This document shows, one piece after another, positions 27,521 through 33,184 of a stretch of 40,444 nt of DNA (the first letter of the stretch is position 1; the number at the start of each line of letters is the position of its first letter). Origin of the DNA: Roseburia sp. (GTDB taxonomy: Bacteria > Bacillota > Clostridia > Lachnospirales > Lachnospiraceae); the NCBI GenBank assembly GCA_023667765.1, contig JAMOZS010000021.1, forward strand, positions 1 to 40,444, read 5' to 3'. The position numbers were made by a program, and so were the translations under genes. The notes below the pieces were generated by a model. The model was not told where the DNA came from and searched no databases. It saw only the letters and a program-made list of their open reading frames with translations.

Positions 27521-29017
27521 TTAAATAAATTTGTTCTTTTTTACCATTCCGACAAATTCCATATTATTTCGAGTGCGCGCAAACATATCCAGAATACGGT
27601 CTGTGGCTTCATCGGATTTCAGGCCGTTCAATGCCTTACGCATAATATTGATGGCTTCAAGCTCCTCCCCGGAAAGCAGCAAATCCTCTCTTCTGGTGCC
27701 GGATTTTGCCAAATCAATAGCCGGAAAAATACGTTTCTCAGAGAGCTTCCTGTCAAGCACCAGTTCCATATTGCCCGTCCCCTTAAATTCCTCATATACC
27801 ACGTCGTCCATCTTACTGCCCGTATCCACCAGTGCAGTCGCCAGAATTGTCAGGCTCCCGCCCTCCCGCATATTTCTTGCGGCGCCGAAAAAACGCTTGG
27901 GCATATGCAGCGCCGAAGGGTCCAGACCGCCTGAAAGCGTACGTCCGCTGGGGGGAACCACCTGATTATAGGCCCTGGTCAGACGGGTAATGCTGTCCAA
28001 AAGAATCACCACATCCTTCTTATGCTCCACCAGTCTCTTTGCGCGCTCAATCACCATCTCGGACACTCTTTTATGATGCTCCGGCAATTCGTCAAAGGTA
28101 GAATAAATTACCTCAACATTCTGACCCATAATCGCCTCTTTGATATCCGTTACTTCCTCGGGCCGTTCGTCAATCAGCAAAATCAACATATGCATCTGAG
28201 GATTGCTGCGCAGCACGGACTTCGCCACCTCCTTTAGCAAGGTTGTTTTTCCCGCCTTGGGCGGAGATACAATCATTCCACGCTGTCCCTTACCCACCGG
28301 ACACACCAAATCCATAACTCTCATAGCCACGCTGCTGCCGGGCGTCTCCATCCTGATTCTCTCATTGGGAAAGATGGGCGTCATATCCTCGAACGCCATG
28401 CGCCTCGCACATTCTTCTATGGTATAGCCGTTGATTGTGCGAATAAACAGCAGCGCGCTGAACTTCTCCTGCTGGGTCTTTACCCGCTTGTTTCCCCAAA
28501 GAATATCTCCGGTTTTTAACCCAAAGCGCCGTATCTGACTGGGCGCCACATATACATCATTTTCTCCCGGCAGATAATTCTCACATCGGATAAAGCCATA
28601 ACCGTCGGGCATCACCTCCAGAATACCGCTGGCCTCCTCTCCGCTGTCCAGCTCTCGGGGATACTGATTCTCATAATATATTTCATTGCGGTAATTCTTT
28701 TCTCTGTCTCCCTCGGATACGGCGGCTCTTGGCGCTGTCTGGGCAGGTCTTGGCGCATTTTCCGACTTGGAAGACGTCGACGGTGCAGGAGCAGACGGTG
28801 CCTGCACCGTCTGGGCAGGTCTGAACTCATTTTCCGCCCCGAATGTGGCTGCTGCCGGTGCCGTCTTTACGGCCGCCTCTCTTTTCAAACGCTCATCCTC
28901 CGCCAGCATGGCCTCCACCACATCCTTCTTTTTCATGGTGGAAGTGCCTTTGATTCCACGTACCTTCGCAAGCTCCTTTAATTCTGTCAACGGCAATGAT
29001 TCATACTTTTCTCTCAT
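27521..29017 (-). CDS. rho: Transcription termination factor Rho
   Basis: An RNA-dependent hexameric ATPase/helicase that ends transcription. The 498 residues contain the N-terminal Rho domain (LPLTELKELAKVRGIKGTST), a low-complexity Ala/Pro/Ser linker at about residues 47-105, and the cold-shock-like RNA-binding domain (GILEVMPDGYGFIRCENYLP). The ATPase core has Walker A PPKAGKTT near residue 255, the Walker B region VVILLDSITRLTRAYN, and the Q-loop/R-loop segment. The linker contains two similar units (ENEFRPAQTVQ and ENAPRPAQTAP) and a DNA-level 11-bp inverted repeat (28779-28811). It has its own promoter and a leader of about 185 bases, which leaves room for the autogenous attenuation known for rho. 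Confidence 0.97.
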   Translation of the reverse strand: MREKYESLPLTELKELAKVRGIKGTSTMKKKDVVEAMLAEDERLKREAAVKTAPAAATFGAENEFRPAQTVQAPSAPAPSTSSKSENAPRPAQTAPRAAVSEGDREKNYRNEIYYENQYPRELDSGEEASGILEVMPDGYGFIRCENYLPGENDVYVAPSQIRRFGLKTGDILWGNKRVKTQQEKFSALLFIRTINGYTIEECARRMAFEDMTPIFPNERIRMETPGSSVAMRVMDLVCPVGKGQRGMIVSPPKAGKTTLLKEVAKSVLRSNPQMHMLILLIDERPEEVTDIKEAIMGQNVEVIYSTFDELPEHHKRVSEMVIERAKRLVEHKKDVVILLDSITRLTRAYNQVVPPSGRTLSGGLDPSALHMPKRFFGAARNMREGGSLTILATALVDTGSKMDDVVYEEFKGTGNMELVLDRKLSEKRIFPAIDLAKSGTRREDLLLSGEELEAINIMRKALNGLKSDEATDRILDMFARTRNNMEFVGMVKKNKFI

Positions 29018-29237: not shown

Positions 29238-29298
29238 GACTTGTCATGGAGATGTTCAACACGAATGTACAATCACATTTCTTTCTGTATTATAATAC

Positions 29299-29451
29299 AT
29301 TTCCTCCCAAATAGGAAGTACTAATTCAAAAACTTGCCAAAAAAAACTTGCGGATACCCATAAACTATTATATGATACTTATGCGTGAACACGCAGAAAA
29401 GAGGTAATTTCATGACAGCAAATGAAAAAGCGCTTTTAAAACATGAAGAAT
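29299..29451. repeat. Left copy of the 153-bp direct repeat (target duplication)
   Basis: Identical base for base to 31920-32072. It contains the malic enzyme promoter, leader, ribosome-binding site and first 13 codons. It abuts the left end of the insertion sequence. One base at each border cannot be assigned to repeat or element, so the true duplication is 151-153 bp. Confidence 0.95.
29348..29376 (+). promoter_or_regulatory. Duplicated malic enzyme promoter (left copy)
   Basis: -35 TTGCGG (29348-29353) and -10 TATGAT (29371-29376) with 17-bp spacing. This copy now drives only a 16-codon stub and points into the insertion sequence, whose left end begins with a terminator. Confidence 0.65.
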
Positions 29452-29462
29452 CGGTAGTTTGA
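29412..29462 (+). pseudogene. Stub of the malic enzyme gene created by the insertion
   Basis: The duplicated start reads the first 13 malic enzyme codons (MTANEKALLKHEE), then runs into the element as SVV and stops. It keeps the AGAGGT ribosome-binding site and promoter, so a short transcript and 16-residue peptide may be made. The complete gene lies to the right of the element. Confidence 0.8.
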
Positions 29463-29489
29463 CAGCCTAATCTTACTCAGGACTTTCCA

Positions 29490-29514
29490 AAGCCAGCAAT
29501 GGCTTAATTTTTTT
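29490..29514 (+). terminator. Terminator at the left end of the insertion sequence
   Basis: AAGCCA-GCAA-TGGCTT (29490-29505) is a perfect 6-bp hairpin followed by AATTTTTTT. It should stop transcripts entering from the duplicated malic enzyme promoter and shield the transposase from outside transcription. Confidence 0.7.
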
Positions 29515-29534
29515 GTCAATTTCTAAATTTATAT

Positions 29535-29563
29535 TTGCACGTTACATACGAATACTGTATAAT
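29535..29563 (+). promoter_or_regulatory. Promoter of the insertion sequence genes
   Basis: -35 TTGCAC (29535-29540) and a perfect -10 TATAAT (29558-29563) with 17-bp spacing lie just upstream of the small ORF. The -35 overlaps the left subterminal inverted repeat, so a protein bound there could repress transposition genes. Confidence 0.75.
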
Positions 29564-29598
29564 GTAAATATATAACACAGAAAGGATGGGAACATTTT

Positions 29599-30042
29599 AT
29601 GGATTATGATGATTATAGCAAGGCATGTGATAAGATAAGGACAGAGAACAGTAAGTATCTCAATCTTTTTGAACAGGCCCTGGTTGAAGATGGCCTTAAG
29701 GACAGCACCATTAAGAGGCATTTATCGAATATTGACTTCTATATAAATGATTTTCTCCTGTACGAAGAACCTCTTACGATTGACCACGGTATAGGCAGGA
29801 TTGATTCCTTCCTTGGCGACTTCTTCATACGCAAATGCATGTGGTCTACGCCCGGAAATATAAAAAGCACGGCTGCAAGTATTAAAAAGTTTTACAAATG
29901 TATGATGGAGCGCGGGATTGTGAAAAAAAGTGACTATGAATTCCTATGCTCTGAAATCAGAGATGGGATGGAAACATGGCAGGCTGACTGTGCTATCTAT
30001 AATGATCCTGATGAACCGAATCCATTTGCCTTTTTCTTTTGA
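29599..30042 (+). CDS. Small IS-encoded protein resembling a recombinase core-binding domain
   Basis: A 147-residue protein that is all-helical in appearance. The pattern FEQALVEDGLKDSTIKRHLS, then IDFYINDFLL, IDSFLGDFFIR and TAASIKKFYKCMMERG resembles the N-terminal SAM-like (core-binding) domain of tyrosine recombinases. The catalytic Arg-His-Arg-Tyr domain is entirely absent, and the protein ends in FAFFF after an acidic stretch. It starts 7 bases after AGAAAGGATGGG and lies 12 bases before the transposase, so both are made from one transcript. A DNA-binding accessory or regulator of transposition is the most natural guess; this is inference from fold-like appearance only. Confidence 0.65.
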   Translation: MDYDDYSKACDKIRTENSKYLNLFEQALVEDGLKDSTIKRHLSNIDFYINDFLLYEEPLTIDHGIGRIDSFLGDFFIRKCMWSTPGNIKSTAASIKKFYKCMMERGIVKKSDYEFLCSEIRDGMETWQADCAIYNDPDEPNPFAFFF

Positions 30043-30054
30043 TGGGGGACAGCT

Positions 30055-31821
30055 ATGAGACTTGGATGGACGAAAAACAAAAATTCCACAACATACCGTG
30101 CCGTAAAAACAGTGCGTGTGGATGGGAAAAATAAGACGCTTCCCATAAAAACCTTTGGATCTGATAAATTCATATGTGCAACCTATCATGTAACTGATGC
30201 CAAAGCATGGGCGAAGGAACAGGTCCGGCTGATGAACGAAGCCGAAAAAGAGGACTCCGCAAAGTTCAACATTGAACTCTGCGCCGGAACAGACCTGGCG
30301 ATGGGTGAACAAAGGCGTTTTAATGGCGGATATCTTTTCCTGCAAGACATTTATTATGAGTTGGGACTGCATAAGATATGCCGTGCAATCTCTGGCAGAC
30401 ATCTTTTTGAGTATGATCTCAATGACATACTCTCGCGCCTCATCTATACGAGGATCCTTTACCCCTCATCAAAGAAAAGCAGTTTTGAAGAATCAAAACG
30501 ATTTATAGAACAGCCGTCATTTGAGCTTCATGATATTTATCGCGCGCTGTCTGTTATGGCGGAGGAATCCGATTACATCCAGAGCCGCCTCTTCAAAAAC
30601 AGTTCCGCCATCCAAAAGAGAATGACACAAGTGATTTACTACGACTGCACCAACTTCTATTTTGAGATTGATGCCGCCGAGGATGACAAGCAGTTCGGCA
30701 AGAGCAAGGAGAACCGCCCTCTTCCGATTGTGGGGATGGGGCTGTTCATGGATATGGACGGCATCCCCATATCCTTCTCTGTCTATCCGGGCAACAGAAA
30801 TGAGCAGATGACTATGATCCCATTAGAAGAAAAGATGCTTTCCGACTTCGGAATGTCAAAGTTCATTGTCTGCACGGATGCCGGTCTTTCGTCCGCTACC
30901 AATCGGGTATTCAACACTTATGATAAAGAGGATGGAACCCGTGGCTTCATCACAACGCAGCCGATAAAAACGCTGAAAGCATTTTTGCAGGAATGGTGCC
31001 TTGCCGATGATGGGTGGATTCTTGACGCAGATAACTCCGGTAAAAAATATAAAATATCTGAATTAGACGATGAACTGGACAAAGACAAGGTCTTTTACAA
31101 GATGAGATGGATCAAAGAAGAAGGGATTATCCATACAGACAAAGGTGATAAAAAACAAGTCATCGAACAAAAGCTCATCGTCTCGTATTCCATTAAATAC
31201 CGTAACTTTCAGCGTCGTGTGCGGCAGGGCCAGGTAGAGCGCGCAATAAAAATGGTAGAGGCCGGTTGTACTTGCGCCGGCAGGAAAAAACAGAACGACC
31301 CTAAGCGGTTTATAAAAACCAATCATGCAACAGAAGAAGGTGAGGTGGCGGAAATATCTGCCAGCTACATAGACCAGTCCATTATTGAAGACGAAGAAAA
31401 ATACGATGGTTTCTATGCAGTGTGCACGAATCTCGATGACAGCATAGGAACTATAGTAAAAGCAAACAAGCGCCGTTGGGAAATCGAGGAATGTTTCCGG
31501 ATAATGAAGACAGACTTTGAGTCACGCCCTGTATATTTAAAACGTCAGGACAGGATCTCGGCGCACTTCATCACTTGTTTCATTGCGCTTATTGTATACC
31601 GATATCTGGAAAAAAAGTTGGACAATAAATATACCATCGACCAGATACTTCCAACCCTGCGGGAAATGGATTTCATGAAGTATGAGGGCAAGGGGTATCA
31701 GCCAGTATACACAAGAACAGAGATTACAGATGCATTGCATGAGGCATTCGATTTTTGTACGTCAAAACAGATTGTTCCTATAGCTAAGATGAGAAATATC
31801 TGCTCACAGACCAAGAAATAG
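30055..31821 (+). CDS. IS1634-family DDE transposase
   Basis: A 588-residue cut-and-paste type transposase of the IS4 superfamily. Catalytic residues are readable as Asp197 in YYDCTNFYFE, Asp275 in FIVCTDAGLS and Glu478 in RRWEIEECFRIMK. Lys485 completes the Y/W-R-E-K signature with the expected six-residue spacing. The long insertion between the second Asp and the Glu (about 200 residues, with the Cys pair GCTCAG) is a beta-strand-rich feature of IS1634 members. No stop or frameshift is present. The ribosome-binding site is GATGGGGGA. A terminator hairpin follows at 31851-31894. Confidence 0.92.
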   Translation: MRLGWTKNKNSTTYRAVKTVRVDGKNKTLPIKTFGSDKFICATYHVTDAKAWAKEQVRLMNEAEKEDSAKFNIELCAGTDLAMGEQRRFNGGYLFLQDIYYELGLHKICRAISGRHLFEYDLNDILSRLIYTRILYPSSKKSSFEESKRFIEQPSFELHDIYRALSVMAEESDYIQSRLFKNSSAIQKRMTQVIYYDCTNFYFEIDAAEDDKQFGKSKENRPLPIVGMGLFMDMDGIPISFSVYPGNRNEQMTMIPLEEKMLSDFGMSKFIVCTDAGLSSATNRVFNTYDKEDGTRGFITTQPIKTLKAFLQEWCLADDGWILDADNSGKKYKISELDDELDKDKVFYKMRWIKEEGIIHTDKGDKKQVIEQKLIVSYSIKYRNFQRRVRQGQVERAIKMVEAGCTCAGRKKQNDPKRFIKTNHATEEGEVAEISASYIDQSIIEDEEKYDGFYAVCTNLDDSIGTIVKANKRRWEIEECFRIMKTDFESRPVYLKRQDRISAHFITCFIALIVYRYLEKKLDNKYTIDQILPTLREMDFMKYEGKGYQPVYTRTEITDALHEAFDFCTSKQIVPIAKMRNICSQTKK

Positions 31822-31850
31822 ATTGTGTAACGTGCATTAATAAGATAAAT

Positions 31851-31894
31851 AAAATTCTCGCAAGCCACCACCAGAGCGGTCCGCGAGAATTTTT
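31851..31894 (+). terminator. Terminator after the transposase
   Basis: AAAATTCTCGC (31851-31861) pairs perfectly with GCGAGAATTTT (31883-31893) around a 21-base loop, and a T follows. It lies 30 bases after the transposase stop codon and should protect the neighbouring malic enzyme gene from read-through. Confidence 0.75.
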
Positions 31895-31919
31895 ACCTTA
31901 AAAGACTGTCAAAGACGGG

Positions 31920-32072
31920 ATTTCCTCCCAAATAGGAAGTACTAATTCAAAAACTTGCCAAAAAAAACTTGCGGATACCCATAAACTATTATATGATACT
32001 TATGCGTGAACACGCAGAAAAGAGGTAATTTCATGACAGCAAATGAAAAAGCGCTTTTAAAACATGAAGAAT
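31920..32072. repeat. Right copy of the 153-bp direct repeat (target duplication)
   Basis: Identical to 29299-29451. It contributes the promoter, ribosome-binding site, start codon and first codons of the intact malic enzyme gene, so the insertion left that gene fully equipped. Confidence 0.95.
31969..31997 (+). promoter_or_regulatory. Working malic enzyme promoter (right copy)
   Basis: -35 TTGCGG (31969-31974) and -10 TATGAT (31992-31997) with 17-bp spacing; predicted start about 30 bases before the ATG. Confidence 0.65.
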
Positions 32073-33184
32073 GGAACGGTAAAATAGAAACAGTCTCCAA
32101 ATCCCCCGTGAAGTCCAGAGAGGACTTAGCCATCGCTTATACTCCCGGCGTTGCCGAGCCCTGCAGGGTAATCGCCGCAGACAGGGAAGCGGCATATAAA
32201 TATACCATGAAGGCCAATACCGTAGCAGTCGTATCAGACGGAAGCGCCGTGCTGGGGCTGGGCAATATCGGTCCCCACGCGGCAATGCCGGTTATGGAGG
32301 GCAAGGCTGTATTATTCAAGGAATTCGGCGGCGTCAATGCGATTCCCATCTGCCTTGATACGCAGGATACCGAAGAGATTATCAAAGCTGTTACCTGGCT
32401 GGCCCCCGGATTCGGCGGAATCAACCTCGAGGACATCAGCGCTCCCCGCTGCTTTGAGATAGAAGAACGTCTGAGAGCCACCCTGGATATTCCCGTGTTC
32501 CATGACGATCAGCACGGAACAGCCATCGTAGTGCTGGCCGGCATTATTAACGCTCTGAAAATAGTTGGCAAAAAGAAGGAGGACTGCCGTGTAGTGGTAA
32601 ACGGAGCCGGAAGCGCCGGTGTGGCGATTGCCAAGCTGCTTTTGACCTATGGCTTCCCCCATATTATCATGTGCAGCAGAAAAGGCATTCTTTCCAAAGA
32701 GGTAGAGGGGCTTAACTGGATGCAGAAAAAAATGACCGAGGTCACCAATCTGAACAACGAAACCGGTACGCTGGCCGATGCTCTTAAGGGCGCGGATATC
32801 TTCATAGGCGTATCCGCCCCCAATACCGTGACCCCGGAAATGGTATCCTCCATGAACTCCGATTCCATTCTCTTCGCCATGGCCAATCCCGTACCCGAGA
32901 TTATGCCGGATGCGGCGAAGGCAGCAGGCGCCCGAATCGTAGGCACCGGCAGAAGCGATTTCCCCAATCAAATCAACAATGTAGTCGCTTTCCCCGGTAT
33001 TTTCAAGGGAGCCTTAGAGGGACGCGCCCCCCAGATTACGGAAGAAATGAAGCTGGCCGCCGCCGAAGCCATTGCAGGTCTGGTACCGGATAGCGAATTG
33101 GCGGAGGACAACATTATGCCGGAACCCTTTGACCCCAGAGTGGCGCTTACGGTAGCCGAGGCTGTAAAGAGCCATATCCGATAA
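32033..33184 (+). CDS. NAD(P)-dependent malic enzyme (malate to pyruvate and CO2)
   Basis: A 383-residue short-form malic enzyme that decarboxylates malate oxidatively to pyruvate. Catalytic and binding motifs are AYTPGVAEPCR (Tyr near residue 37), KAVLFKEFGGVNA (Lys), ISAPRCFEIEERL with VFHDDQHGTAIV (metal ligands), the dinucleotide loop NGAGSAGVAIAK near residue 190, and MANPVPEIMPDAA. The start at 32033 follows AGAGGT with a 6-base gap and is the start shared with the left repeat; an in-frame ATG nine codons upstream lies in the leader. The radical SAM gene begins one base after its stop. Whether NAD or NADP is preferred cannot be read reliably. Confidence 0.95.
   Translation: MTANEKALLKHEEWNGKIETVSKSPVKSREDLAIAYTPGVAEPCRVIAADREAAYKYTMKANTVAVVSDGSAVLGLGNIGPHAAMPVMEGKAVLFKEFGGVNAIPICLDTQDTEEIIKAVTWLAPGFGGINLEDISAPRCFEIEERLRATLDIPVFHDDQHGTAIVVLAGIINALKIVGKKKEDCRVVVNGAGSAGVAIAKLLLTYGFPHIIMCSRKGILSKEVEGLNWMQKKMTEVTNLNNETGTLADALKGADIFIGVSAPNTVTPEMVSSMNSDSILFAMANPVPEIMPDAAKAAGARIVGTGRSDFPNQINNVVAFPGIFKGALEGRAPQITEEMKLAAAEAIAGLVPDSELAEDNIMPEPFDPRVALTVAEAVKSHIR

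Follow-up and report, generated by a model that had tools for sequence, protein, structure and literature searches.

The closest described relatives of the insertion analyzed here are IS1634 of Mycoplasma mycoides and IS1549 of Mycobacterium smegmatis, members of the same family that generate long direct repeats of variable length, ranging from 8 to 514 bp (PMC2266710). In the parts that concern the two elements, this 2008 review notes the lack of any proposed mechanistic model for the variable duplications, and it names no promoter anchor. According to the same source, duplications in the IS1634 family are either of 5–6 bp or, as in IS1634 and IS1549, long and variable, while the elements measure 1500–2000 bp and share the terminal pattern C-----YT. 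Another trait of the family is that the YREK motif is not complete. ISGka5 and ISPfe2 belong to the same family by name but are reported with 6-bp duplications in the relevant parts of PMC8024623 and PMC3281130. Promoter targeting has been described for a different set of elements, namely TnGBS, ISLre2, and members of the ISKra4 group, which, in the part of PMC3942029 that deals with them, insert 13–17 bp upstream of the −35 box, i.e. outside the promoter, and carry unrelated transposases of the Mutator superfamily.

The window, by which we mean the whole 40,444-nucleotide stretch of DNA that was analyzed, is one whole contig of a 2.79-Mb draft genome in 101 contigs, and it contains an IS1634-family element flanked by a long target duplication. 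Judging from the junctions of related insertions, we consider it quite likely that elements of this clade usually have their right end at the downstream boundary of a σA-type −10 box and their left end 33–332 bp upstream, such that the core promoter is duplicated, and we infer from these positions a mechanism that involves the bubble opened by RNA polymerase. This differs from the behavior of TnGBS, ISLre2, and the ISKra4 group: the clade's joint lies at −7/−6, with the −35 box at a spacing of 17–18 bp, rather than 13–17 bp upstream of −35, the promoter is duplicated, and the Pfam and NCBIfam matches of the transposase are to DDE_Tnp_1 and IS1634/IS4-type models rather than to Mutator-type ones. 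Long duplications and promoter targeting are thus each known, but their combination at the −10 box was not found in the searchable literature; nor did we find a report of −10-box anchoring by IS1634-family elements in the openly searchable literature, where an earlier description is possible.

The Insertion between rho and Malic Enzyme

The element (29452–31919, + strand, 2468 bp, ends CGGTAGTTTGACAG / CTGTCAAAGACGGG) is flanked directly by two copies of a 153-bp segment, at 29299–29451 on the left and 31920–32072 on the right. The copies are identical in 153 of 153 bases, and the next base differs on both sides. An exact repeat of 153 bp that touches both ends of the element is not chance. 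The transposase of 588 amino acids is encoded by a full-length ORF (30055–31821, + strand) and scores 340.9 bits against the NCBIfam model NF033559 (transpos_IS1634, cut-off 100) and 34.6 bits against Pfam DDE_Tnp_1 (cut-off 23). The terminal pattern of the family, read by eye, is present at both ends (left CGGTAGTT; right, as the reverse complement, CCCGTCTT). The duplications also correspond to the long and variable type of the family, with 153 bp in the window and 33–332 bp in 35 relatives. The length of the element, on the other hand, is outside the 1500–2000 bp given for the family, a range that is descriptive and not a defining trait, and it is exceeded because an extra ORF of 147 amino acids (ORF1, 29599–30042, + strand) is carried. 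One copy of the element was found in the 101-contig assembly.

ORF1 appears to be an optional passenger. Profile searches gave no match for it in Pfam or NCBIfam, and its assignment as an integrase was rejected, the best PHROGs match of an ORF1 homologue (E = 0.021) being too weak. A stretch of about 520 bp that includes ORF1 is missing in relatives such as G119, and the nearest elements, those of G119 and G132:C63, are without it. Among the 138 genomes of the genus, five have a match to ORF1 (the window, G057:C63, G132:C43, G102:C109, and G103:C112); in G132, ORF1 and the transposase are on separate contigs. The element's own promoter-like boxes, TTGCAC-17-TATAAT (29535–29563, + strand), lie upstream of ORF1, and they can be read as well in L093, a relative that lacks ORF1.

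On the left of the element, rho (27521–29017, − strand; NF006886, 593.2 bits) is transcribed away from it, and on the right lies an intact malic enzyme gene of 383 amino acids (32033–33184, + strand; Pfam PF00390 and PF03949). Each 153-bp copy holds the promoter-like boxes of malic enzyme, read from the sequence as TTGCGG-17-TATGAT (29348–29376 in the left copy and 31969–31997 in the right, + strand), followed by an RBS-like stretch, an ATG (at 29412 in the left copy), and 13 codons. The right copy runs on into the open 383-aa ORF, so that malic enzyme regains its 5′ end. A preliminary description of this DNA had claimed the identical copies abutting an intact IS1634-type element, the presence of the malic promoter boxes, RBS, ATG, and first 13 codons in the duplicated piece, and the rebuilding of the gene by the right copy, and the present analysis bears out each of these observations. 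In the left copy, the malic start (29412–29462) continues directly into the end of the element and encounters a TGA in the terminal repeat after 16 codons. Transcription from the malic promoter captured there would proceed through ORF1 and the transposase gene.

The left copy also contains the −35 region of rho. The predicted rho promoter (29289–29317, − strand) consists of a −10 box TATAAT (29294–29289), a 17-bp spacer, and a −35 box TTCCTA (29317–29312). The latter is a weak match to TTGACA, and we call the promoter despite this because both boxes and the 17-bp spacing are conserved. Malic enzyme was matched in 132 of the 138 genomes of the genus, and the loci of 29 others were fetched; the pattern ATTATA-N17-TAGGAA, i.e. 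the leftward TTCCTA-17-TATAAT, occurs in 20 of these 29 relatives, with constant spacing and a spacer sequence that drifts. The malic promoter pattern was found in none of the 29, yet similar boxes are readable in several of these loci.

The duplication starts at 29299, within the spacer of the putative rho promoter, with the joint 29298/29299 falling between −16 and −17. The left flank retains the −10 box and the duplication includes the −35 box, so that the left copy would leave rho with a complete promoter. On the reading of these boxes, the analysis shows an insertion in the divergent promoter region of rho and malic enzyme, in which the 153-bp duplication provides a complete predicted promoter for each gene. 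The promoter that was entered would be that of rho; in the clade, the right end usually lies at the predicted −10 box of the gene on the left.

The Right End at the Predicted −10 Box

Related junctions were collected from a contig scan of relatives (80 loci kept, 543 relatives), a family search (46 of 397 genomes, with 40 regions fetched), and genus searches. The resulting 130 deduplicated loci, mostly from Clostridia-type genomes, gave 100 right-end junctions; 30 loci were dropped because the right end was unmatched, fewer than 45 bp lay outside it, or the first 40 outside bases duplicated those of another locus.

The consensus of the first six bases outside the right end is ATTATA, which is the −10 box of a leftward promoter cut between −7 and −6. 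A match to TATAAT in at least five of six bases is found at the right end in 66 of the 100 junctions, compared to 1.0% of the positions in the same flanks, and in 60 of 91 when one junction is taken per distinct element. The full hexamer is present in 37 junctions, against a background of 0.05%. Conservation is highest at position one (92%), followed by positions five (88%) and six (85%); we take these to correspond to T−7, A−11, and T−12, respectively.

A −35 box matching TTGACA in at least five of six bases at a spacing of 16–18 bp accompanies 28 of the 100 junctions (background 1.7%). The distribution over the spacings is narrow, with 17 junctions at 17 bp, 8 at 18 bp, and 3 at 16 bp, while the other spacings between 10 and 25 bp have at most two. 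The two scores amount to 68.4% and 30.4% for 79 right ends, whereas they are 2.6% and 1.3% for 76 left ends scored alike, the sole bias of the left end being a slight one toward C or T in the two flanking bases that adjoin it. Eighteen later junctions, which were hand-chosen and inspected before counting, gave 13/18 and 6/18 with the same scoring, where masked bases in L259 and L272 were counted as mismatches and L258 fails (2/6).

That the strongest signal resides in the six bases adjoining the right end would also suit a transposase that itself recognizes an ATTATA-like motif, with the promoters being incidental and RNA polymerase uninvolved; direct motif recognition is, as general knowledge, common among transposases. 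A bare preference for ATTATA would, however, not predict the independent −35 signal, which is located far from the joint at a spacing of 17–18 bp, while only 2.4% of the background positions with a −10 match of at least 5/6 have a −35 match. Neither would it predict the extended −10 bases, which are found at 32 of the 100 junctions, compared to 6.7%. We therefore regard direct recognition of the hexamer as rather unlikely, and consider a promoter occupied by RNA polymerase to be the probable target.

Left End and Duplication Lengths

The left end lies at a variable distance upstream of the −10 box. In the 35 loci where the repeat abuts both ends, this distance is 33–332 bp, with a median duplication of 105 bp and none shorter than 33 bp. 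With the right end at the −10 box and the left end upstream of it, the duplication would usually copy the whole promoter. The statistics of the junctions show, for boxes assigned by sequence, that the long variable duplication corresponds to the stretch from the predicted −10 box to an upstream point and contains the putative core promoter. The preliminary description had interpreted the insertion in terms of a long target duplication and a rebuilt gene. Both parts stand, while the interpretation proves to be incomplete in that the position does not appear to be arbitrary: the joint would be set by the −10 box and the duplication would extend upstream, usually copying a promoter because the element goes to promoters.

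A target repeat was detected in 42 of the 100 loci with a usable right end, two of them (L068 and L173) weak and decayed. When the loci are restricted to the 63 with 400 bp or more of sequence beyond each end, a repeat is seen in 39 and missing in 24. In genomes with multiple copies, 43 of 58 loci gave a repeat of at least 14 bp. Three of these (L236, L289, and L293) were excluded because the repeat lies at a distance from the element and is probably due to chance, which leaves 40 loci that we read as having repeats close to the two ends, in several subfamilies with different ends; several of the 58 are insertions already in the 80-locus scan set. A wider sample had matches in 111 of 398 genomes. 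Forty regions were fetched from it, and the ends were determined in 30 (10 were unpaired), giving 15 long repeats of 59–406 bp, 8 loci with none, and 7 matches of 4–8 bp that are not reliable as duplications. The 35 clean lengths gave no signal of helical periodicity, the best vector length being 0.277 at 9.9 bp.

Two loci deserve separate mention. At L063 (G132:C63), where the element shows 74% identity, the repeat is limited to the 6 bp ATCATA, a hexamer that itself resembles a −10 box. At L155 (G536:C1:846006-849668) there are two adjacent IS1634 copies, and the left duplication copy starts 2.3 kb from the left end of the element, as though the second element had inserted into that copy or next to it.

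The shortest clean duplication is about as long as the span from −10 to −35, and transcription leads away from the element for 34 of 42 left-hand genes, versus 15 of 40 right-hand ones (Fisher p = 1e-4). Both features could also arise if insertion were nearly random and all events that fail to rebuild a promoter were lost by selection. Such selection would, however, not pin the joint to one base at −7/−6, and no promoter signal is present at the left end, so that we judge this explanation improbable. Selection against broken promoters may instead add to the effect of an insertion that is directed to the −10 box.

Proposed Mechanism

We suggest that the first strand transfer would be into the template strand where the −10 region is melted in the RNA polymerase open complex. 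For a promoter that reads leftward, the top strand serves as the template, and its 5′ end would be joined to the right end of the element at −7/−6, a position that is single-stranded in the open complex. The second joint would form on the opposite strand, 33–332 bp upstream at a point that is only roughly set, and gap repair would then copy the whole interval between the two joints. One IS1634-family transposase binds the β sliding clamp, according to the pertinent part of PMC4549789, which makes strand-displacement synthesis between the joints conceivable.

A fixed anchor at −10 would turn the unexplained variable duplications into a testable two-step reaction. The clade would add another type to the transposons that target promoters, with members that insert within the promoter itself and still provide the gene with an entire copy. 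This could explain the spread of such elements through compact genomes, and it could also serve to mark promoters in uncultured bacteria.

The Window Junction and Unoccupied Sites

The window itself departs from the rule. The first six bases at its junction are ATTTCC, which match TATAAT in only three of six positions. With the predicted rho −10 box just outside the joint of the element, the joint would be displaced 10 bp upstream, i.e. by about one helical turn. The match is below 4/6 in 15 of the 100 junctions; the left copy is present in three of these outliers (L001, L094, and L174), and among those three the 10-bp displacement is seen only in the window. Matches of at least 4/6 occur in 8 of 13 junctions of the nearest clade of the window, versus 54 of 60 and 23 of 27 in two more distant groups.

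In four inspected relatives of other species (L053, L040, L056, and L048), the site is single, unduplicated, and continuous to the malic start, at distances of 164, 191, 135, and 138 bp, respectively; the corresponding distance in the window without the insert would be 123 bp. L053 differs by one base from the 29-bp rho promoter site of the window. These loci agree with the earlier expectation that relatives without the element carry a single segment, just as the 33–332 bp found in the 35 clean cases agree with the expected long and variable duplications at other copies. In these cross-species comparisons, neither two copies at a site without the element nor exclusively short duplications were encountered. 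Although the assembly is a draft in 101 contigs, it is scarcely credible that the 153-bp repeat arose in assembly or goes back to an older tandem duplication in which transposition had no part, considering that the element was found once in the assembly, that 21 of the 29 fetched relatives have rho as the oppositely oriented neighbor of malic enzyme, that the site is single in the four inspected ones, and that such repeats occur at 42 of the 100 related junctions.

A Sister Subfamily at T-Tracts

In a sister IS1634 subfamily (ends CCTGACTTTTGCAG and alike; loci L239-L246, L325-L329, L335-L339, and L364), it is the left end that is fixed, after T-tracts: at least four T are present in the last six bases of 15 of 19 junctions, compared to 7.6% in the flanks. 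The fixed joint would also here lie on the template strand, with the duplication running upstream. Because this arrangement parallels that of the promoter-associated clade, we offer, tentatively and as a somewhat doubtful generalization, that IS1634-family transposases may read transcription complexes. One end would attack the template strand of the bubble, in the open complex or, in the sister subfamily, at a T-tract, in some cases that of an intrinsic terminator, and the other end would join the opposite strand behind the polymerase, at a position that varies. The long duplications would be the trace of these two steps, perhaps with strand-displacement synthesis by a clamp-bound polymerase.

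The T-tracts suggest terminators as the possible targets of the sister subfamily, and we put this forward as a suggestion only. A clear hairpin directly before the T-tract is present in only four loci (L239, L243, L244, and L328), and at L243 the duplication of about 31 bp comprises the whole hairpin and the T-tract.
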